DNA of 33,508 nt from an uncultured Spirochaetia bacterium (GTDB lineage Bacteria > Spirochaetota > Spirochaetia > JABEVK01): contig CALGPJ010000027.1 of the NCBI GenBank assembly GCA_937960645.1, positions 1-33,508 on the forward strand, in the 5' to 3' direction. The notes beneath the pieces are model-generated. The model was not told where the DNA came from. It saw nothing but the letters and a program-made list of their open reading frames with translations, and ran no database searches. This document shows, one piece after another, positions 2,085 through 28,506 of the stretch (position 1 is its first letter; every line of letters begins with the position of its first letter). Made by a program: the position numbers and the translations under genes.

Positions 2085-3061
2085 GCCACCAGCCCCCCTA
2101 CCCTGTCGCCATCGTCGGTCTGGGCCGAATCGCCTGGAAGCTCGAAAAGGACAGCCTGAGGGAAAAACCCGCCACCCATGTGGGCGCCATCTTCGAGGAG
2201 CCTCGACTGCAGCTGGTGGCCGGATTGGATCGGGACGAGGGGGCCCGCGATGGCTTTCATCGAGAATATCAGGTGCCGGTTTTTTCCGACTTCGACACGA
2301 TGCTGGGTGAAGTTCACCCCGATTTTCTGGTGATCGCCACCCACCCGGACAGCCACCTGCAGTATCTCCGCAAGGCGGTGGAGGCCAGGATCCCTTTAAT
2401 CCTCTGTGAAAAGCCCCTGGGAATGGTCGAAGAGCGGTTTTCCCCCTTGCTCAACCGGGCACAGCGGTTAGGGCTAAGGATTATGGTCAACCACGAAAGA
2501 CGTTACTCGCGGGACTGGCAGGCTGCCAGGACCCTGATCGAGAGCGACGAACTGGGCCGGCCTCTGAGTTTTTATGCGCGCATTTCGATGGGAAGGACGC
2601 GGGACCCCACCTCGGTCCTATTTTGGGATGGGACCCACATGCTCGACGCCCTGCGATTTTTGTTTCCTGGAAGTTGGAAGGTCCTCGATCGCTGGTCCGG
2701 CAAAAAATCCTGCGGCAAACTCGTTGCCCAGCTGCAATTCGGATCGGTTTGCGGGATTCTGGATGTCTCGTCCGGGTACGACCACCTCGTGTTCGAACTC
2801 GAGGTCCAATTCACTGCCGGACGCCTCAGGATCGGCAACGGCATCTGGGAGGTGTGGCACAGCCAGCCCAGCCCCTTTTACGAGGGCTTTCGCAGCCTGG
2901 TGCGACGGGAGGAACGGGTGTGGTCCACGACCAACTACTTCCGCGGGGTCATGACCGACGCCGCCGATTGTCTGGAAGATCCCTCTCGCAAGCCGCTTTC
3001 CACGGGACGGGACGGATGGGAGGCCTTAAAAATCATCCGCACCTTGCTCGGCGTTCACTGA
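2081..3061 (+). CDS. Gfo/Idh/MocA-family NAD(P)-dependent oxidoreductase
   Basis: A 326-residue protein with an N-terminal Rossmann fold: VAIVGLGRIAW near residue 10 is the GxGxxA nucleotide loop, VVIATHPDSHLQYLRKAVEA-like segment follows at about 85-105, and ILCEKPLG at about 107-114 carries the EKP motif of this family. Residues after about 130 match the substrate-side alpha/beta domain (NHERRYS; WDGTHMLDALRFL). These enzymes oxidise or reduce sugar, cyclitol or related hydroxyls; the substrate cannot be told. I take TTG 2081 as start: it overlaps the TelA stop in a TTGA, there is no stop-free alternative upstream outside telA, and homology begins within a few residues. No Shine-Dalgarno is visible, so translation is probably coupled. 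The gene ends tail to tail with the TPR gene, sharing seven bases. Confidence 0.88.
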   Translation: MSHQPPYPVAIVGLGRIAWKLEKDSLREKPATHVGAIFEEPRLQLVAGLDRDEGARDGFHREYQVPVFSDFDTMLGEVHPDFLVIATHPDSHLQYLRKAVEARIPLILCEKPLGMVEERFSPLLNRAQRLGLRIMVNHERRYSRDWQAARTLIESDELGRPLSFYARISMGRTRDPTSVLFWDGTHMLDALRFLFPGSWKVLDRWSGKKSCGKLVAQLQFGSVCGILDVSSGYDHLVFELEVQFTAGRLRIGNGIWEVWHSQPSPFYEGFRSLVRREERVWSTTNYFRGVMTDAADCLEDPSRKPLSTGRDGWEALKIIRTLLGVH

Positions 3062-5136
3062 TTCAGATAGCGCTCGATTTCGGCCCGCCGGGAATAGTTG
3101 GGCTGTTTTTCCAGCAGGCTACGGAACACCCGGGCTCCTTCCTCGGTTTCGCCCAATGCGTAGTGCACGGTTCCCAGCCGATAGTAAGCGTCCCAGTAGG
3201 AGGGATTGAGCCGCACGAGTTCCGTCAGAACACTTTTTGCCAGGTCGTTGCGTTTGGTTTCGATGTAGGCCAGGGCGAGGTTGAACCGAACCTGCGGGGT
3301 GTCGGCCCGCCGATCGATGGCCCGTTGATAATAGGTGATGGCCTGATCATAAAGTTTTTTCTGAAGCAGGATGTTGCCCAGGTTGTTGTTGACGGTCATG
3401 TTGTTGGGCTCCAGATCGAAGGCGGCCATCAGGAGGTCCAGGGCCCCATCCAGATCCCCGTTTTTCTCCAGGATGTTGGCGAGGTTGACCCGAGGTGCGA
3501 CGTACCGGGAGTCCAATTCCAGGGCACGCCGATAGGTGGACAGGGCATTCGCCTCATCCCCGCTGCGTTCCAGCACCAATCCGAGATGATACTGATACAG
3601 GGCGTTGTTCGGCTCCAGTTGCACCGCCTGACGGGCGTTCTGCAGGGCCGCGGCCGTTTTGTTGAGCCTCAGCTGGGTCAGGCTGAGGTTGTAGGGAATT
3701 TCCGCTCTCGAGGCTTCCAGGGACAATGCCCGGGTCAGGGACTCCTCGGCCTCAGCGAAGCGGTTCAGGTTGAAGTAGGCGGTGCCGAGGGCCAGGTGGT
3801 AGACTCCCCGGTTGGGCTCGAGCTTGACGGCCTCCTGAAGGGACGGGACGGCCTGACCAAAATTGCCTAGCCGGGATTGAGCCTGGCCCAGCGCAAAATG
3901 CCCCACCGCGTAATCAGGCTTGGCCCGGACACTGGCCTGAAAGGACTGGACCGCGCTGCGATCATCGTTGAGCTGCTGGTGGCTCAATCCCTGGTTGTAA
4001 GCCGCACGGTGATTGGCAGGTTCGAGGCGAAGCACCTGCCCGAAGGTCTGGGCCGCTTCTCGGAATTGTTTGTTGCGGTAATACGTCACCCCGAGTTCGT
4101 AAAGGATGGAGGAGTTCTGGGGGTTGAGGCGGTCGGCCTGGCGATAGTTGGTGATCGCCTCGTTCCAGTTCTGAGCCGATTGATACACATCACCGAGGAT
4201 CTTGTAGGGCCGAAAGTTGTTGGGATTGAGCTGCACCGCCTGGTTCAGGTACTCGATGGCCCGCCGTCGGTTTTCGGCACCACCGGGATTTTCCAGATAA
4301 AAGGATTCCCCCATCCGTTCCAAAGCGGTGGCGTTGCGGGAATCTTTCTGGAGCACCTCCTGAAAGATCTGGCGGGCCTCGGGGTGGCGCCCCTGGTTCA
4401 TGAGCTCGATACCGCGGTTGAGCAACTCCTGGCGCTCGCGCTCCTCCCTGCTCAGACGCGCGGCCTCGGCCTGCTGGCGGGCCAGCCGCTCCTGCTCCTC
4501 CCGCGCCCTCTCCTGCTGGCGGCGTGCTTCCTCGTCCTGGGCAGACATTTGGGGCTGGGCAGGCGGTGCGGCAGGTTGCTGTACCACCACGACCCGTTCG
4601 GCAGGCCGAGTGTTTTGCAAGGCCTGCATTTCCTCGCGCCGCCGCCTCTCCTCGGCCTCCCGCTTTCGCTCCAGGGTCTGACTGAGTAGGGACTCGGCCT
4701 CAGCGTCGTTCAGGTCGCGAGTCAACAGACTCTCCAGCAGGCTGATCGCCCGATCGTACTCCCCCTGCTCCAGGTACCGCTGTGCCAGAATCAGGCTGTT
4801 GGCCCGAGAGTTATCGGGGGTTGGCGCCGATCGTGAGCCGGCAACCCAGACCCCACCCAAAAGCAGGGCAAGCACGCCCGCGCCGATGAGGACGGGAAGT
4901 TTCCAACGCCCTGATCGGGTCGGGGCAGGTCCTGAAGGGACAGACGATGTCGGCGGGTTAGCCGCCGCTGGAGCGGACCCGGTGCGCCGCGAAGCCGTTT
5001 TGACAACTTTGGGAGCATCCCTGGAGGCTGTTTTTTTGGAGGGTGCCGTTTCTTTTTTAGGAGCTGCCGCGGTGGTTTTTCGGGGCGGGGCCTTGGCAAC
5101 AGCCTTTTTGGATTTGGGTGTTTTCTCAGTCGGCAA
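3055..5136 (-). CDS. membrane-anchored TPR-repeat protein with histone H1-like basic N-terminal tail
   Basis: A 693-residue protein. Residues 1-77 are rich in Lys, Arg, Ala, Pro and Thr (18 basic, 3 acidic). A single membrane helix spans about 79-100 (LPVLIGAGVLALLLGGVWV). A short TPR-like pair follows, then a Glu/Arg/Gln-rich coiled coil (about 150-225), then roughly a dozen TPRs to the C-terminus (motifs such as NNFRPYKILGDVYQ, YAVGHFALGQAQ, TPQVRFNLALAY). By the positive-inside rule the tail is cytoplasmic and the TPRs periplasmic. I choose TTG at 5136: an ATG at 5454 exists but would overlap the upstream TPR gene by about 330 bases with a shadow-like sequence. TTG 5136 overlaps that gene's end by 11 bases and has GAAGAGG upstream. 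Probably a protein-interaction scaffold; partner unknown. Confidence 0.82.
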   Translation of the reverse strand: MPTEKTPKSKKAVAKAPPRKTTAAAPKKETAPSKKTASRDAPKVVKTASRRTGSAPAAANPPTSSVPSGPAPTRSGRWKLPVLIGAGVLALLLGGVWVAGSRSAPTPDNSRANSLILAQRYLEQGEYDRAISLLESLLTRDLNDAEAESLLSQTLERKREAEERRRREEMQALQNTRPAERVVVVQQPAAPPAQPQMSAQDEEARRQQERAREEQERLARQQAEAARLSREERERQELLNRGIELMNQGRHPEARQIFQEVLQKDSRNATALERMGESFYLENPGGAENRRRAIEYLNQAVQLNPNNFRPYKILGDVYQSAQNWNEAITNYRQADRLNPQNSSILYELGVTYYRNKQFREAAQTFGQVLRLEPANHRAAYNQGLSHQQLNDDRSAVQSFQASVRAKPDYAVGHFALGQAQSRLGNFGQAVPSLQEAVKLEPNRGVYHLALGTAYFNLNRFAEAEESLTRALSLEASRAEIPYNLSLTQLRLNKTAAALQNARQAVQLEPNNALYQYHLGLVLERSGDEANALSTYRRALELDSRYVAPRVNLANILEKNGDLDGALDLLMAAFDLEPNNMTVNNNLGNILLQKKLYDQAITYYQRAIDRRADTPQVRFNLALAYIETKRNDLAKSVLTELVRLNPSYWDAYYRLGTVHYALGETEEGARVFRSLLEKQPNYSRRAEIERYLNQ

Positions 5137-5980
5137 GGTCGAGTTCCTCTTCGGTTTTTTTGATGGCGCCCTCACCGGCCTGCAGGTTTTTCGTTTCCTC
5201 GGCAGCCCGGGAAAGGCTTTCGCGTATTCTAGCCAGAAGTTCCTCCCGTCGTCTATTTTCTTCCTCGAGGCGGGCCTGTTCCTCCGCACGGCGGCGCTCT
5301 TCCTCCAGGCGAGCCTGTTCTGCCGCCCGGCGCTGTTCTTCAGCCTGGATGGCGGCCACTCGTTCCGCCTCACGGCGCGCCTCTTCCTCGCGTGCAATCT
5401 GGGCCAATCGCTGGGCCTCCGCCAGGCGTTCGGCCTCCAGGCGGGCCGCGACATGGGCTCTCAAAAGTTCGATGAGGCGGGCGATCTCCTGCCGCTGAGG
5501 ATTTTGGGGCTGAAGGGCCAGGACCTGAGTATAATCGCCAGCAGCTCCCTCGTAATTTTCACGGATGAGACGCACGTTGGCTCGGTTCAGCAGGGTGTCC
5601 GCATCGCGATGGTCCAGGGCCAGGGCCTGGTTGTAGAAGTCTTCGGCCTCCTGGTACTTTCTCTGGGCCATCAAGACATTCCCCATATTGAACAGAAGGG
5701 TCTGCCTCAAATCCCCCTCCAGATCCAGGCCCCGGCTGAAAAAAGTACGAGCCCGTTCGGTCTGCCCCAGTGAATAGGCAGCGATGCCCAGATACAGAAA
5801 GAGCTTCTGGGAAATCTGCCCCTGACCCAGGCTGGCTTCCAGGAAAACCAGGGCCTCCTGGGGCTTGTTCTCCTGGAGCAACCTTTCCCCCTGCTGCAGG
5901 AAGTCCTGGCTGTGGTTGGCGCCGATGGCCGCCAGACTGATGAGTAAAAATAAACCTATTTGACAGCCTTTTCGGAACAT
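5126..5980 (-). CDS. exported TPR protein with long charged C-terminal helix
   Basis: A 284-residue protein with a Sec signal peptide (MFRKGCQIGLFLLISLAAIGA, likely cleavage near residue 21). About four TPRs follow (residues 24-145; LQQGERLLQENKPQEAL, LFLYLGIAAYSLGQTERA, LFNMGNVLMAQRKYQEA). From about 160 to 255 the protein is nearly all Glu, Arg, Ala and Gln in heptad-like blocks, consistent with a coiled coil or single alpha-helix. ATG 5980 is used because it gives the signal peptide; longer upstream extensions run antisense through the divergent TPR gene. It is the first gene of a two-gene minus-strand operon with the membrane TPR protein, which carries a similar charged helix, so the two may assemble in the periplasm. 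Function unknown. Confidence 0.8.
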   Translation of the reverse strand: MFRKGCQIGLFLLISLAAIGANHSQDFLQQGERLLQENKPQEALVFLEASLGQGQISQKLFLYLGIAAYSLGQTERARTFFSRGLDLEGDLRQTLLFNMGNVLMAQRKYQEAEDFYNQALALDHRDADTLLNRANVRLIRENYEGAAGDYTQVLALQPQNPQRQEIARLIELLRAHVAARLEAERLAEAQRLAQIAREEEARREAERVAAIQAEEQRRAAEQARLEEERRRAEEQARLEEENRRREELLARIRESLSRAAEETKNLQAGEGAIKKTEEELDLAD

Positions 5981-5988
5981 ACTACCAT
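5960..5988 (+). promoter_or_regulatory. sigma-70-type promoter for the TPR/phosphoesterase/ParB-like operon
   Basis: A perfect TTGACA at 5960-5965 and TACCAT at 5983-5988, 17 bases apart, predict a start near 5995. This rules out the ATG at 5960 as the start of the plus-strand gene. The promoter overlaps the first codons of the divergent TPR gene. Confidence 0.6.
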
Positions 5989-6031
5989 TCCAATATACCA
6001 TTATCGGCAAGAATTGACGGGGGTTGTACGC

Positions 6032-7399
6032 TTGGAACTCGTGATCACGCTCGTGTTTGGAGGAGTGGCCCTGGCGGCAGCCCTGTTTTTCCTGTTTACA
6101 CAGGTTCTCGTTCCTCAACGGCTCTCCACCGTTCAAAATCTGATTCGCCAGGGCAAGTATCCCCAAGCGGTCAAAATCGCCCAGAAAATTGTCAGCAAGG
6201 ACATGCGCAACAGCGAGGCCCATTACCTTCTCGGGATGGCCTACCTGCAGCTCAACAAGCCCGAATTGGCCCTGGTCGAATTCAAGACCGTCAATCAGCT
6301 GGGCATCTTCACCGGCGTGATCAAAGAGATCGAGTTTCGCAAGCGAATCGCCGAACTCTACATGCAGTTCGATCAGGACGAAGAAGCCCTGAAGGAGTAC
6401 ATTCTCCTGATCAAGGCGGAACCGCACGAGGCGGAGCATTACTACATGGCCGGGTTTCTGTTCGAGAAACATTCCAAATCCGACCAGGCCCACAAGTACT
6501 ACCGCAAGGCCATCGAGCTGAACCCCACGCACGTGCAGGCCCACCTCCACCTGGGGATGCTCCTGTATCGGGCCAAGCGCGAAAACGATGCCCGAAACGA
6601 GCTCGAGGTCGCGCTCAGGTTTGCCCCCGACAATTTTGAGGCTGCCTATTACATCGGGAAAATCCTCAAGGACAGCAAGGACTATAACGGCGCCCTGGGA
6701 TACTTCGAAAAAAGTTTGAAGGACCCACAGCTGCGCCTCAAAAGCCTCATCGAACGCGGCATCTGCTTCCTCCAACTGGACAATCTCGACAGGGCCATTC
6801 CCGAATTTGAAAGGGCCATCAAACTGGAAAGCCCCGATAACCAGAACGAAATCCTCCACGCCCGCTATTTTCTGGCCTATTGCCACGAAAAGGAAAGAAA
6901 TTTCGATGCGGCGATCGAGCAATGGGAGACCATCTACCGCATCAAACAGAACTTCAAAGATGTGGCCGAAAAACTCAGCCTCTACGCCGACCTCCGCTCC
7001 GACGACAAAATCAAGGACTACCTCACCTGCTCCAAACAGGATTTCGCTCAAATATGCACCGCCCTTACCCAGGCGCAGGGTTTCAAGGTCAGGGAGGCCA
7101 CCGAGATTCCCGACGGGATGCAGATCATCGCCATCGAGAGTGACAGCGAGCAATGGCGCAATGTCAAGAAAATGCCCAAGATCATTCAATACTACCGAAT
7201 CTCCGACAATATCGACGACAGCGTTCTGCGGCCCCTCTCCGATGCCCTTCAGAGAATGCAGGGTAACCGGGTAATCGTGGTCACCAACACAGGCTTTACC
7301 CGAACCGCAATGAACTTCGCCGAGAGCCGGCCCTTCACCCTGATGGCCAAGGATGGGCTGATCAACCTATTAAACAAGGCCAATTGGAAAATCAAATGA
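6032..7399 (+). CDS. membrane-anchored TPR protein with C-terminal degenerate Mrr-like (restriction-endonuclease-fold) domain
   Basis: A 455-residue protein from TTG 6032, preceded by GGGGG (6019-6023) at eight bases; GTG 6041 is an alternative. Residues about 2-25 are a membrane helix (LVITLVFGGVALAAALFFLFT). Some seven TPRs fill about 30-325 (YLLGMAYLQLNKPELAL, AHKYYRKAIELNPTHVQAHLHLGMLL). The last 130 residues resemble an Mrr catalytic domain: a QICTALTQAQGFKV helix-strand, DGMQIIAIE where Mrr has its acidic pair, IIQYYRIS where Mrr has QCKRY, then VIVVTNTGFTRTAMNFAESR and a terminal DGLINLL. The catalytic Lys of the QxK strand is replaced by Tyr, so nuclease activity is doubtful and a binding role more likely. 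It overlaps the phosphoesterase gene by four bases. Confidence 0.8.
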   Translation: MELVITLVFGGVALAAALFFLFTQVLVPQRLSTVQNLIRQGKYPQAVKIAQKIVSKDMRNSEAHYLLGMAYLQLNKPELALVEFKTVNQLGIFTGVIKEIEFRKRIAELYMQFDQDEEALKEYILLIKAEPHEAEHYYMAGFLFEKHSKSDQAHKYYRKAIELNPTHVQAHLHLGMLLYRAKRENDARNELEVALRFAPDNFEAAYYIGKILKDSKDYNGALGYFEKSLKDPQLRLKSLIERGICFLQLDNLDRAIPEFERAIKLESPDNQNEILHARYFLAYCHEKERNFDAAIEQWETIYRIKQNFKDVAEKLSLYADLRSDDKIKDYLTCSKQDFAQICTALTQAQGFKVREATEIPDGMQIIAIESDSEQWRNVKKMPKIIQYYRISDNIDDSVLRPLSDALQRMQGNRVIVVTNTGFTRTAMNFAESRPFTLMAKDGLINLLNKANWKIK

Positions 7400-8070
7400 A
7401 AATCCTCTGCGTGGCCGATCAGATCGACCCCCTGGTCTACAGCAGTTCGATCAAGAGCCGTTTTCGGGATGTGGCCTTTGTGCTGGGGGCCGGGGATCTG
7501 CCGCTGGAGTATTACAGCTTCATCGTCAGCTGCCTCAATGTTCCCCTCTATTACATCTTTGGCAACCACGAACTCGCCAGCTACAAAGCCATCAAGTTTC
7601 GCTCTTTTCGGGATCCCAAGACCTGGGAGGACGATGTCCAGCTCAAGGAAAAGTACGGGGCCATTTACACCGGAGATAAAAACCACCGCCAAAACCGGGT
7701 CCTTCTTGCCGGTCTGGGAGGCAGCAAACGATACAACGATGGAATGAACCAGTACACCGAACTCCAGATGTTTTTCAAGGCGCTGAAACTCCTGCCGGGT
7801 CTGATCTGGAACAGGATCGTCCATGGCAGGTGGCTGGACATCCTTCTGACCCACGCCCCACCCCTGGACATCCACGACAAGCCCGACCCCTGCCACCGGG
7901 GCTTTCGGGTATTTCGCTGGTTCATGCACCTGTTCAAACCGCGTTACCTGGTTCACGGCCACGTCCACCTTTACCGCCTGGACGATCAGCGCTATACCCA
8001 ATTCGAACAGACCATGGTCGTCAACGCGTTCAACCATGTGGTGATCGAAATGGAGGTGGAGGGTGGATGA
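7396..8070 (+). CDS. calcineurin-like metallophosphoesterase
   Basis: A 224-residue cytoplasmic protein with all metal-binding blocks of the family in order: VADQID near residue 7 (first block, with DQ in place of the usual DxH), LGAGDLP about 35 (GD), FGNHE about 57 (GNHE), LLTHAPP about 152 (His) and VHGHVH about 187 (GHxH). The class hydrolyses phosphomonoesters or phosphodiesters using two metal ions; substrate cannot be deduced. The start at ATG 7396 overlaps the TGA of the TPR gene (ATGA); a TTG twelve bases upstream is less likely. The 3' end overlaps the ParB-like gene by eight bases. Tight coupling suggests the three products act together. Confidence 0.88.
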   Translation: MKILCVADQIDPLVYSSSIKSRFRDVAFVLGAGDLPLEYYSFIVSCLNVPLYYIFGNHELASYKAIKFRSFRDPKTWEDDVQLKEKYGAIYTGDKNHRQNRVLLAGLGGSKRYNDGMNQYTELQMFFKALKLLPGLIWNRIVHGRWLDILLTHAPPLDIHDKPDPCHRGFRVFRWFMHLFKPRYLVHGHVHLYRLDDQRYTQFEQTMVVNAFNHVVIEMEVEGG

Positions 8071-8962
8071 ACGGCTGATCACCGCCAAGGCCTCGGACGA
8101 CTTCAACCGTGCCCGGGCCAAGGAAGTGTTTTCACGGATCGTTCACCTCCTCAAACCGGAAAAAACCCAGCTGCTCAACCTCAAGGAGGTAAAGGCCCTG
8201 TTGCGTACCCGAGGTGAGTACTACAAGGGGATGCAGACCGTCCCCATCGACGCGATCGTGGGAAGTGAGGGCCGCTACCGGGACTTCAACCAGGCCTTTC
8301 TTCCGAAACACGAGTACCTGCGCGAACGCTGGGAACGGATCGACAAGGCACGGCTTCGAGACGAGATCCTGCCGCCGATTCGCCTGTACCAAATCGGCGA
8401 GGTCTATTTTGTCCGCGACGGCAACCACCGCGTCAGCGTCGCCAAAAGTCAGGGCCAGAAAGCCATCGACGCCGAGGTGACGGCCATCACTGCCGACATT
8501 CCTCTCAAACCAGGCATGACCCAATCGCAGATGGTCGAAGCGCTGATCGCCTGGGAAAAGCAAAAGTTCATCACCCAGACCCATCTGGACCGGGTCATTC
8601 CTTTGGAGGATCTCAATTTCAGCTCCCCCGGCCGCTTCGACGAAATCATCAAGCACATCGAGGGACACCGCTACTTCATGAACCTCCGCCCCGGTAACAA
8701 TCTGAGCTTCGAACAGGCGGCGCGAAGCTGGTTCGATAACATCTTCTACCCCATCGTGCAGGCCGTGCGCCGTGAAAACCTGCTCAGCCGATTTCCGGGC
8801 CGAAACGAGGCCGACCTTTACATCTGGATCGTCCAGCATTGGGACGGGCTCAAAGCGAAGTACGGCGAAAAGGTGAGCATCACCGAGGCCGCTCGGGACT
8901 TCTCCCAAAAATTCGGAAAGAGCTTCTGGGAGCGGCTGGCCGGCCTGTTCAAGTCCCACTAG
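8063..8962 (+). CDS. ParB/sulfiredoxin-like domain protein
   Basis: A 299-residue soluble protein starting at GTG 8063 with GGAGG seven to eleven bases upstream, inside the end of the phosphoesterase gene. Residues about 58-140 resemble the ParB/Srx fold: VPIDAIVGSEGRYRDF, then a core IRLYQIGEVYFVRDGNHRVSVAKSQG, where DGNHR corresponds to the GxxR/GNHR nucleotide loop of ParB-like proteins. The C-terminal third holds a second conserved-looking block, FPGRNEADLYIWIVQHW (about 252-268), then a helical tail. No helix-turn-helix of classical ParB is obvious, so a partition role is unlikely; nucleotide-dependent switch, kinase or nuclease-like activity are possibilities. Its TAG overlaps the TAG of the convergent chemoreceptor gene in a shared CTAG. 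Confidence 0.72.
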   Translation: MDERLITAKASDDFNRARAKEVFSRIVHLLKPEKTQLLNLKEVKALLRTRGEYYKGMQTVPIDAIVGSEGRYRDFNQAFLPKHEYLRERWERIDKARLRDEILPPIRLYQIGEVYFVRDGNHRVSVAKSQGQKAIDAEVTAITADIPLKPGMTQSQMVEALIAWEKQKFITQTHLDRVIPLEDLNFSSPGRFDEIIKHIEGHRYFMNLRPGNNLSFEQAARSWFDNIFYPIVQAVRRENLLSRFPGRNEADLYIWIVQHWDGLKAKYGEKVSITEAARDFSQKFGKSFWERLAGLFKSH

Positions 8963-26735: not shown

Positions 26736-26743
26736 CAGATATT

Positions 26744-26825
26744 GCGGCGGTGGTGAAATTGGTATACACGCAAGCTTGAGGTGCTTGTGCCGCGAGGTGT
26801 GCGGGTTCGAGTCCCGCCCGCCGCA
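26744..26825 (+). tRNA. tRNA-Leu (anticodon GAG)
   Basis: The acceptor stem GCGGCGG (26744-26750) pairs with CCGCCGC (26818-26824), with A as discriminator base. The anticodon arm CAAGC-TTGAGGT-GCTTG gives anticodon GAG, reading CUC and CUU. A 13-base variable region makes it class II as expected for Leu. The T arm GCGGG-TTCGAGT-CCCGC is canonical. CCA is not encoded. No integrase or repeated 3' end is near, so it is not evidently an attachment site. Confidence 0.97.
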
Positions 26826-26910
26826 AACAATCAGACTTCCCGACAATCAACAGGACCCCCGCTAACCCCAATAGGCCCTAAAAATAGGTTCAATTACTTC
26901 AAAAATACCG

Positions 26911-26928
26911 TATACTTCTGTTGGAGGT
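26911..26928 (+). promoter_or_regulatory. -10 element and ribosome site of lemA
   Basis: TATACT at 26911-26916 and GGAGGT at 26923-26928, four bases before ATG 26933. The leader would be only about ten bases. No good -35 is visible. Confidence 0.45.
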
Positions 26929-26932
26929 ATCG

Positions 26933-27496
26933 ATGGATTATCTATTATGGGTTGCTTTGGGGGCGGTTGTACTGTTGCTCCTGACCATCGTGGGCATTTT
27001 CAACAGCCTGATCGCCAAAAAGAACCAGGTCAAAAAGGTCTTTGGCGGACTGGATGCCCTTCTGAAAAAACGTTGGGACCTCATTCCCAACCTCGTGGCA
27101 ACAGTATCCCGGTATGCCAGGCACGAAGCCGAAGTGTTGGAAAATCTGACCAAACTGCGATCTCAGGGTCAAAACCCCTCCGAGGCCGCCAACACCGATG
27201 TCCAGCTCACCCGGGCCCTTGGGGGATTGCGGGTGGCGGTAGAAAACTACCCGGACCTGAAAGCGAATCAAAACTTCCTCCAACTCCAGGGATCCCTGAA
27301 CGAGGTGGAAGAACAGATCAGCGCGGGGAGGCGGGCTTACAACGCCGCCGTCGAAGAGTACAACAACGCTCTGGAGATGTTTCCTTCCAACATGTTTGCA
27401 GCCATGATGGGTCTCAAGAAAGAAGCCTTTTTCGAGATCACCGCGGCCGAGCGTCAGAACGTCGACGTCCGCCAACTTTTTCAAAGCGATAGGTGA
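26933..27496 (+). CDS. lemA: LemA family protein
   Basis: A 187-residue protein with one N-terminal membrane helix (residues 2-24, YLLWVALGAVVLLLLTIVGIF) and the LemA core: FNSLIAKKNQVKKVFGGLDALLKKRWDLIPNLV, then VENYPDLKANQNFLQLQGSLNEVEEQISAGRRAYNAAVEEYN (landmarks YPDLKAN, EVEEQISAGRRAYN). It ends near FPSNMFAAMMGLKKEAFFE. LemA proteins are coiled helical bundles outside the membrane; function unknown, linked to envelope processes. ATG 26933 is chosen over the in-frame TTG at 26921 because GGAGGT lies between them. It overlaps the DUF3137 gene by four bases, a pairing seen often in bacteria. Confidence 0.95.
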   Translation: MDYLLWVALGAVVLLLLTIVGIFNSLIAKKNQVKKVFGGLDALLKKRWDLIPNLVATVSRYARHEAEVLENLTKLRSQGQNPSEAANTDVQLTRALGGLRVAVENYPDLKANQNFLQLQGSLNEVEEQISAGRRAYNAAVEEYNNALEMFPSNMFAAMMGLKKEAFFEITAAERQNVDVRQLFQSDR

Positions 27497-28506
27497 CCAT
27501 GGTCACTCGATCCGAGGTCGAATCGTTTTACGAGAACGAGCTGAAGTCCCGTATCGGCCCGCTCGAAGCAGAGCGAAAAAAACTGGCGGGAAGGATCGTC
27601 CTCCTGTCGATCATTTCCGGCAGTATCGTGGCGGGCTGTGTCGTCCTCTTCGTCGCCGTCCTGGGCGATGCCTCCCCGTGGCTCGCTTTTCTCGCCATGG
27701 CTCTTTTGATCTCTGCCATCGGAGGCTGGACCTTTTTTCACAATCGGTTAAAGGCCGGCTATGTGGGTCGATTCAAAAATGTCGTGATTCAGGGTCTGAT
27801 CCACCGCATCGATCCGAGCTTTATTTACGAACCGGATGCCTGCATCCCTTTGAAGGAATACCGGAAGAGTGGCATTTTTCGTGAAAGGGTCGATCGGTAC
27901 AGCGGGGACGACCTGGTACGCGGAACCATCGGCGAGACGCCTTTTCATTTCAGTGAGGTCCACTCCGAATACAAGACCGAAAGTACCGACAGCAAGGGAA
28001 ACCGGACCACTCACTGGCATACCATCTTTTGGGGACTGATGTTTCGCGCCCTGTTCGCCAAATCGTTCCACGGGCGCACCTACGTACTAAACGACCGAGG
28101 GGCAGGAAAGAGGGGATTCTTCAAGGCCCTGAACCACTTCTTCCAAAAAATGGACAAGTCACACGGTCAGTTGGTCAAAATGGACAACCCGGACTTCGAG
28201 GAGCTCTTCGTGGTGTACTCGGACGACAGCATCGAGGCGCATTACATCCTTTCCCAAAGCATGATGGAGCGCCTGACGAACTACGCCCGCAAGACGGGAA
28301 GAGGCACCGCATTTTCTTTCGTGGAGAACACCGTGTTTGCGGCCATTCCTTTTAACCGCCCGCTTCTGGAGCCAAAGATATTTCGCACCCTTTACGACAA
28401 AGAAACGATTTTGGGCTATTACGACGATTTGGCCCTGGCAATATCGATCGTGGAGGAGCTTAATCTGAACACCCGGCTTTGGGGCGATGTGGCCTCCCCG
28501 ATTTAG
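27493..28506 (+). CDS. DUF3137 membrane protein
   Basis: A 337-residue protein. Residues about 32-80 form two membrane helices (IVLLSIISGSIVAGCVVLFVAV and LAFLAMALLISAIGGWTFF). The large C-terminal domain carries FIYEPDACIPLKEYRKSGIF, FHFSEVHSEYKTES, IFWGLMFRALFAKSFHGRTYVL, FEELFVVYSDDSIEAHYILS and a final MERLTNYARKTGR, as in DUF3137 proteins encoded next to LemA. The function is unknown. GTG 27493 overlaps the LemA stop (GTGA); ATG 27499 is an in-frame alternative two codons later. Both would be translationally coupled to lemA. Confidence 0.87.
   Translation: MTMVTRSEVESFYENELKSRIGPLEAERKKLAGRIVLLSIISGSIVAGCVVLFVAVLGDASPWLAFLAMALLISAIGGWTFFHNRLKAGYVGRFKNVVIQGLIHRIDPSFIYEPDACIPLKEYRKSGIFRERVDRYSGDDLVRGTIGETPFHFSEVHSEYKTESTDSKGNRTTHWHTIFWGLMFRALFAKSFHGRTYVLNDRGAGKRGFFKALNHFFQKMDKSHGQLVKMDNPDFEELFVVYSDDSIEAHYILSQSMMERLTNYARKTGRGTAFSFVENTVFAAIPFNRPLLEPKIFRTLYDKETILGYYDDLALAISIVEELNLNTRLWGDVASPI

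Follow-up and report, generated by a model that had tools for sequence, protein, structure and literature searches.

A TPR gene trio and a metallophosphoesterase–ParB-like gene pair side by side at a conserved locus of Spirochaetia

The window analysed here, a stretch of 33,508 nucleotides, is contig C27 in a Spirochaetota genome of 2.23 Mb that consists of 75 contigs. Two divergent arms of genes are found in it, in which three genes for TPR proteins (TPR-A, TPR-B, and TPR-Mrr) lie beside genes for a metallophosphoesterase (MPE) and a ParB-like protein:

3055..5136, minus strand: TPR-B, 693 aa, with a TTG start inside the 3' end of TPR-A
5126..5980, minus strand: TPR-A, 284 aa, with an ATG start and a signal peptide
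5981..6031, no strand: divergent intergenic region of 51 bp, separating the two arms
6032..7399, plus strand: TPR-Mrr, 455 aa, with a TTG start
7396..8070, plus strand: MPE, 224 aa
8063..8962, plus strand: ParB-like protein, 299 aa, with a GTG start

An initial annotation of this DNA had delimited a cluster at 3055-8962. Its genes are all present, with small corrections of coordinates, and they number five rather than the six announced. The overlap of the genes within each arm is confirmed, with 11 bp shared by TPR-A and TPR-B in the minus arm, and 4 bp by TPR-Mrr and MPE and 8 bp by MPE and the ParB-like gene in the plus arm. The TTG at position 6032 is the start residue that matches the homologues of TPR-Mrr, including the closest relative.

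The order TPR-B< TPR-A< TPR-Mrr> MPE> ParB> is found in 39 of the 80 named Spirochaetes loci (37, plus two with a split gene). As the same five genes recur there in the same order and orientation, the arrangement is far beyond chance. Breznakiella homolactica (L147), cultivable and non-pathogenic, is one of the spirochaetes that carry all five. TPR-A, TPR-B, MPE, and ParB are present in the same layout without TPR-Mrr in 15 of the 80 loci, and MPE> ParB> stands alone in 13, partly owing to contig ends. Among 296 genomes of the phylum, the ParB-like gene was detected in 109, MPE in 113, and an Mrr-type domain in 196. Of the 107 genomes with both genes, 91 have MPE immediately upstream of ParB, with a median of 34 bp between the match ends, and TPR-Mrr lies directly upstream of MPE in all 62 same-class genomes compared, which are those with the best Mrr match listed. 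In the single-contig genome G287, ParB is displaced by 1.2 Mb; in T. denticola-type genomes, MPE is kept and the ParB gene is missing. The apparent ancestral neighbourhood (L037, L098, L109, L118, L127, L132, and others) comprises an outer-membrane-like protein and mutL upstream, and a lipoprotein-like protein, an M23 peptidase, recJ, and deoA downstream. For the TPR module, no functional neighbour emerged from these genes: mutL, recJ, the M23 peptidase, and the others are conserved by position, and none suggests a mechanism.

Within the class Spirochaetia, the region consists of two modules side by side, the TPR trio and the MPE–ParB pair, since the two are unlinked in deeper lineages and have been lost independently. 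The trio stays together, with MPE and ParB elsewhere or absent, in outer-phylum loci where it is either divergent (L074, L075, L080, L082, and L083) or codirectional (L085, L086, and L091). All genomes of family f11 that were examined have kept the MPE–ParB pair and lost the TPR genes, Sphaerochaeta-like genomes keep only the pair, and locus L057 reads MutL> MPE> ParB>, the three TPR genes between being missing. The initial annotation, which had put the five genes forward as one candidate system, had taken neighbourhood conservation as a check and scattering of the genes in relatives as a sign against it. The neighbourhood holds at the 39 loci mentioned, but scattering is observed in part, outside the class, where the modules lie at separate places, so that the claim of a single system is not sustained.

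A more explicit version of such a system, in which the cytoplasmic MPE–ParB pair would make or remove a phosphorylated signal, TPR-Mrr would sense it, and the membrane TPR proteins would pass it on to the envelope, is in our view rather unlikely. The tight TPR-Mrr> MPE> ParB> operon with overlapping genes, present in most Spirochaetia families, speaks for it, and the pseudo-enzyme Mrr domain described below suits the binding of a ligand or a protein. However, either module occurs alone in several lineages, the loci are unlinked in deeper ones, and TPR-Mrr, the proposed reader, is the gene missing from the 15 loci that keep the four others. Alternatively, the genes could be unconnected neighbours that have stayed together by chance, gene order being slow to rearrange in this one class. 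The modules are indeed unlinked outside the class, and mutL, recJ, and deoA are conserved by position too, but this quite improbable explanation could account for no more than the junction of the modules: the pairing of MPE and ParB over four phyla cannot be slow drift, and the TPR trio remains together in the different arrangements given above.

Regarding the minus arm, TPR-A comprises a signal peptide, 3-4 TPRs, and a long charged helix rich in E/A/R. TPR-B exhibits a basic N-terminal tail of 77 aa (18 K/R), a single membrane helix at about residues 80-98, and then about 12 TPRs. As the charge bias of these proteins is opposite to that of TPR-Mrr, the positive-inside rule predicts a cytoplasmic TPR-B tail and periplasmic TPRs, and TPR-A is likewise predicted to be periplasmic. 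In TPR-B relatives, the membrane helix begins at a median residue of 8 and the long basic tail is shorter or absent, so the tail is a lineage-specific, unconserved feature. A tail that is a conserved nucleic-acid binder was thus rejected, and the view that the tail marks nucleic-acid binding is not supported, most relatives carrying just a short N-terminus ahead of the membrane helix. The association of the genes with the membrane and the envelope, in turn, is borne out.

TPR-A is the counterpart of T. pallidum TP0470, TPR-B that of TP0468-TP0469, and TPR-Mrr that of TP0471. TPR-A shares with the TP0470 family the signal peptide, the N-terminal TPRs, the C-terminal charged helix, and synteny. 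A T. pallidum-type genome (1.14 Mb, locus L072) contains EAEEARRK repeats and the three TPR genes, and its TPR-B, with 650 aa, equals the published length of the TP0468-TP0469 fusion, which supports the assignment of all three genes. The order and orientation of TPR-B, TPR-A, and TPR-Mrr in TP0468-TP0471 are the same as in the window. In contrast, the T. pallidum-type genome has neither MPE nor ParB, unlike the window, and the EAEEARRK repeats of TP0470 are replaced in the TPR-A of the window by an imperfect E/A/R-rich helix that is not made of identical 8-residue repeats. TP0470 is periplasmic by prediction, and a part in cell-envelope remodelling has been suggested for it, with no function given (PMC9531955). 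The literature on TP0469-TP0471 deals with antigenicity and repeats, and gives no function beyond these. The assignment puts TP0470, a repeat-variable syphilis typing protein, into a conserved unit of three genes, one of which codes for a membrane TPR protein with a pseudo-nuclease domain. The partners of TP0470 can thus be named, and cultivable treponemes or environmental spirochaetes could serve to test them.

The flagellar collar is a spirochaete-specific periplasmic complex, and TPR proteins serve as periplasmic motor scaffolds (PMC8609358, PMC11870540), so the TPR trio might be an accessory complex of the periplasmic flagellum or of its collar. Exactly 12 same-class genomes are without FlhA; all belong to f11, all 12 are also without TPR-Mrr, and they are the sole high-quality FlhA-less genomes in two tallies. 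As these losses of FlhA fall within one family, they count as one event. Furthermore, G245 keeps FlhA and has lost all three TPR genes, the Borrelia-type family f5, the families f8, f9, and f20, and the greater part of f24 have flagella but no TPR-Mrr, and flagellar genes are absent nearby. The FlcA model NF047371 (NCBIfam) gave TPR-B 84.4 bits against a cut-off of 300, a score of the size expected from common TPRs. We consider the flagellar reading possible but weak, and quite improbable. The identification of TPR-B as a flagellar-collar protein was rejected, as just the TPR signal is in common and nothing in the phylogenetic profile calls for it.

At its N-terminus, TPR-Mrr exhibits a membrane helix; a TPR solenoid follows, and the pseudo-Mrr domain occupies the C-terminal part (about residues 332-447). 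The net charge is about 0 before the helix and about +6 in the next 30 residues (median of 48 relatives). Since the positive charge follows the helix, the positive-inside rule predicts an N-out, C-in orientation, with the TPRs and the Mrr domain in the cytoplasm. The C-terminal domain matches the Pfam profile Mrr_cat (PF04471) with 44.8-47.8 bits (cut-off 21; E 1.9e-12 at 47.8 bits), and AlphaFold modelled it as an alpha-beta-beta-beta-alpha-beta-alpha core with a pLDDT mostly of 87-91 and one weaker loop. Foldseek with the whole TPR-Mrr model returned nothing on the Mrr part, as TPR structures swamped the results. The catalytic (D/E/Q)xK motif is found in none of 33 Spirochaetia and 22 phylum-wide sequences at the core strand 383-388, which instead reads xLIRFx followed by a near-invariant R389. 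Position 364, where the first acid is expected, is acidic in only 18 of the 33, and W375, R389, and R433-P434 are conserved in place of the catalytic motif. As the motif has gone from all the aligned sequences, the domain is a pseudo-enzyme across the whole family. Both the pseudo-Mrr assignment of the initial annotation and the fold that it expected from structure prediction agree with these results.

Two known groups of proteins resemble TPR-Mrr. LapB/YciM, a membrane-anchored cytoplasmic TPR protein, is built in the same way, from a membrane helix at the N-terminus, a TPR solenoid, and a small C-terminal domain, but its C-terminal domain is rubredoxin-like rather than pseudo-Mrr, and the NCBIfam LapB models scored far under their cut-off in the window. 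Inactive restriction-endonuclease-like (iREase) adaptors share with TPR-Mrr a multidomain organisation and a PD-(D/E)xK-type fold without catalytic residues, whereas TPR-Mrr is fused to membrane TPRs and has no NACHT or other ATPase. A paralogue of TPR-Mrr with the same architecture is present in the same genome (G000:C7:89000-90397, L174:8001-9398; Mrr_cat 31.7 bits). It weakly matches NA-iREase1, adjoins rsmG, and is close to an SLT lytic transglycosylase gene and an FtsK-type gene. Two Mrr-domain matches are present in many relatives too.

MPE matches the calcineurin-like metallophosphoesterase profile PF00149 with 35.1 bits (cut-off 21.5). Its metal ligands D8, D34, H58, H153, and H191 are conserved in 21 of 21 sequences, and N57 and H189 in 20. 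One canonical metal ligand is lacking: in all 21, position 10, the place of the histidine in the first DxH motif, is I, V, K, R, or P. The subfamily is recognised by the signature GLGGSxRYNxGxNQxTE plus DxxDxCHRGF, which is largely common to the Collinsella partner described below.

The ParB-like protein is predicted to have a ParB/Srx fold (residues 49-144), which carries the motifs GSEGRxxDF, LPPI, and VRDGNHRxSV (the first, the last, and the PP of LPPI being invariant or nearly so), followed by a helical DUF4032-like domain with FPGRxxxDLY. The DGNHR and FPGRNEADLY motifs of the initial annotation are thus both present. All of 19 divergent homologues keep DGNHR unchanged; E69 of GSEGR is invariant in spirochaetes and replaced by V in Tsukamurella, Cetobacterium, and Rubrobacter, and no residue of the protein could be assigned as catalytic. 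The AlphaFold model, built with 32 sequences, has a pLDDT of 90.3 and a pTM of 0.80. In a Foldseek search against the PDB, ParB/Noc came top by E-value, and the best geometric fits, over 86-99 columns, were the free serine kinases SbnI (2.2-2.4 A) and SerK (2.7-2.8 A), along with sulfiredoxin (3.0-3.9 A), human Srx giving an rmsd of 3.2-3.8 A with a prob of about 1.0. These matches bear out the fold that had been proposed. Identity to SbnI is 22% over 86 columns. For the model as a whole, the TM-scores to ParB/Srx are only about 0.22 (of the query), a low value explained by the match covering just some 90 of the 299 residues, and PDB searches by sequence, with single proteins or alignments, returned nothing useful. 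The DUF4032 profile (PF13224) matches the C-terminal half of 15 of 19 homologues (E<0.1, best 2.6e-7); the window protein itself scores 20.4 bits, under the cut-off of 23.8. DUF4032 is unmentioned in the literature searched.

Sulfiredoxin, SerK, and SbnI share with the ParB-like protein the fold, the HR of the phosphate-binding DGNHR-type motif, and the lack of an HTH domain. In contrast, the ParB-like protein has an additional helical DUF4032-like domain, a near-constant MPE neighbour, and no Srx cysteine. According to a survey of the ParB fold, its members may bind CTP, ATP, or GTP, and SerK, SbnI, and Srx are enzymatic members (PMC12704722). A heading in the results of that survey states that nucleotide specificity is not reliably predicted by sequence analysis or AlphaFold3 (PMC12704722), and its main text mentions neither DUF4032 nor a phosphoesterase or MPE-type pairing. 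A ParB_N (PF02195) search of the genome picked up a ParB on C2 and a short protein on C21, but not the window gene. No HTH family was above cut-off in the ParB-like protein and no ParA was found among its neighbours. The canonical ParB of a ParABS system was rejected, as the genome has a separate ParB.

The MPE–ParB pair occurs in four phyla, the spirochaetes and at least three others, the latter in plasmid or chromid records. The two genes are adjacent in Tsukamurella, next to sugar ABC and alpha-amylase genes, in two Cetobacterium records, next to sugar ABC, TrmB, and glycogen phosphorylase genes, in Collinsella and, by coordinates, in Subdoligranulum. These relatives were confirmed with hhalign, in which the ParB of Tsukamurella reached 99.9%, that of Collinsella 95.7%, and the Collinsella MPE 100%. 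In Collinsella, a Bmp/PnrA nucleoside-binding-type domain is joined to the ParB-like region (3.9e-16), a fusion that would predict a ligand of nucleoside type, and the Subdoligranulum ParB relative aligns with this fusion over its full length. These contexts differ (sugar uptake, alpha-glucan, arsenic) and indicate no substrate; they suggest small-molecule metabolism or sensing rather than DNA work. A plasmid of Rubrobacter tropicus carries, within a group of arsenic-resistance genes, a ParB-like domain that stands alone, with no DUF4032 (L178:5812-6291, 48% identical across 83 residues), and a gene of the metallophosphoesterase family (L178:8977-9771).

A membrane-linked nucleic-acid or anti-phage defence system, a direction in which the initial annotation had pointed, would account for the Mrr and ParB-like folds and for the weak PADLOC matches (PDC-S02, 1.7e-5; PDC-S10, 4e-7). 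However, the (D/E/Q)xK motif is missing from the Mrr strand in every aligned sequence, no DNA-binding domain was found on the ParB-like protein, a separate canonical ParB exists, and the basic tail is unconserved. Moreover, the locus is chromosomal, vertical, conserved in order, and located next to mutL, recJ, and the M23 peptidase instead of in an island, and phages are essentially without these genes. We therefore regard a nucleic-acid role as very improbable, and anti-phage defence as such was dismissed, the PADLOC matches being weak and no phage relative convincing.

The best reading of these results, to which we attribute a probability of about 0.5, is an envelope TPR scaffold beside a cytosolic pair formed by a kinase/NTPase-like protein and a phosphatase. 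We infer the topologies of the proteins, their physical interactions, and the division of labour between kinase or switch and phosphatase. The TPR trio would probably form an envelope-spanning scaffold, in which TPR-A and the inner-membrane-anchored TPR-B would display TPR surfaces in the periplasm, and TPR-Mrr, also anchored in the inner membrane, would display a TPR solenoid and a non-catalytic, binding Mrr fold in the cytoplasm. MPE and the ParB-like protein would probably be a cytosolic pair of antagonistic enzymes. The ParB/Srx fold may bind an NTP or NDP, after which the protein could, like Srx, SerK, and SbnI, phosphorylate a small molecule or a protein, or else serve as a nucleotide switch; MPE would strip the phosphate or hydrolyse the product of the bound nucleotide. 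It is conceivable, though we think it unlikely, that the signal of this phylum-crossing pair, a ParB/Srx kinase or nucleotide switch opposed by a dedicated phosphatase, is read in Spirochaetia by the membrane pseudo-Mrr TPR adaptor, which would control a TP0470-containing envelope complex.

No part of the locus has an unknown fold, and the conserved combination is uncharacterised in the literature searched; the MPE–ParB pair itself appears undescribed. A ParB/Srx-fold protein is thus identified with a near-constant gene neighbour, one metallophosphoesterase subfamily, in four phyla. If the proposed functions are true, the range of the ParB fold, which covers DNA segregation and small-molecule kinases, would widen to include a module that pairs a kinase or switch with a phosphatase.

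Several other observations were made at these loci. In Treponemataceae (L046, L049, L067-L070, and L073), the next gene downstream of ParB or MPE codes for a GAF-SpoIIE phosphatase, as tested with Pfam on the copy in L068. At some of these loci, HATPase- and STAS-like genes come after it, and the set is reminiscent of a partner-switching module. L092 and L134 come from SulCav_GS09 metagenome bins whose GTDB records are titled Borreliella garinii and Treponema denticola; their loci do not resemble those of these species, and the titles are probably wrong. In the window, a Halogen_Hydrol (PF10112) gene followed by TelA (PF05816) at 370-2084 forms a toxic-anion-resistance-type pair. Two genes at 26921-28506, named by eye only, code for a LemA-like protein and, after it, a membrane protein, and a tRNA-Leu(gag) at 26743-26826 adjoins them.
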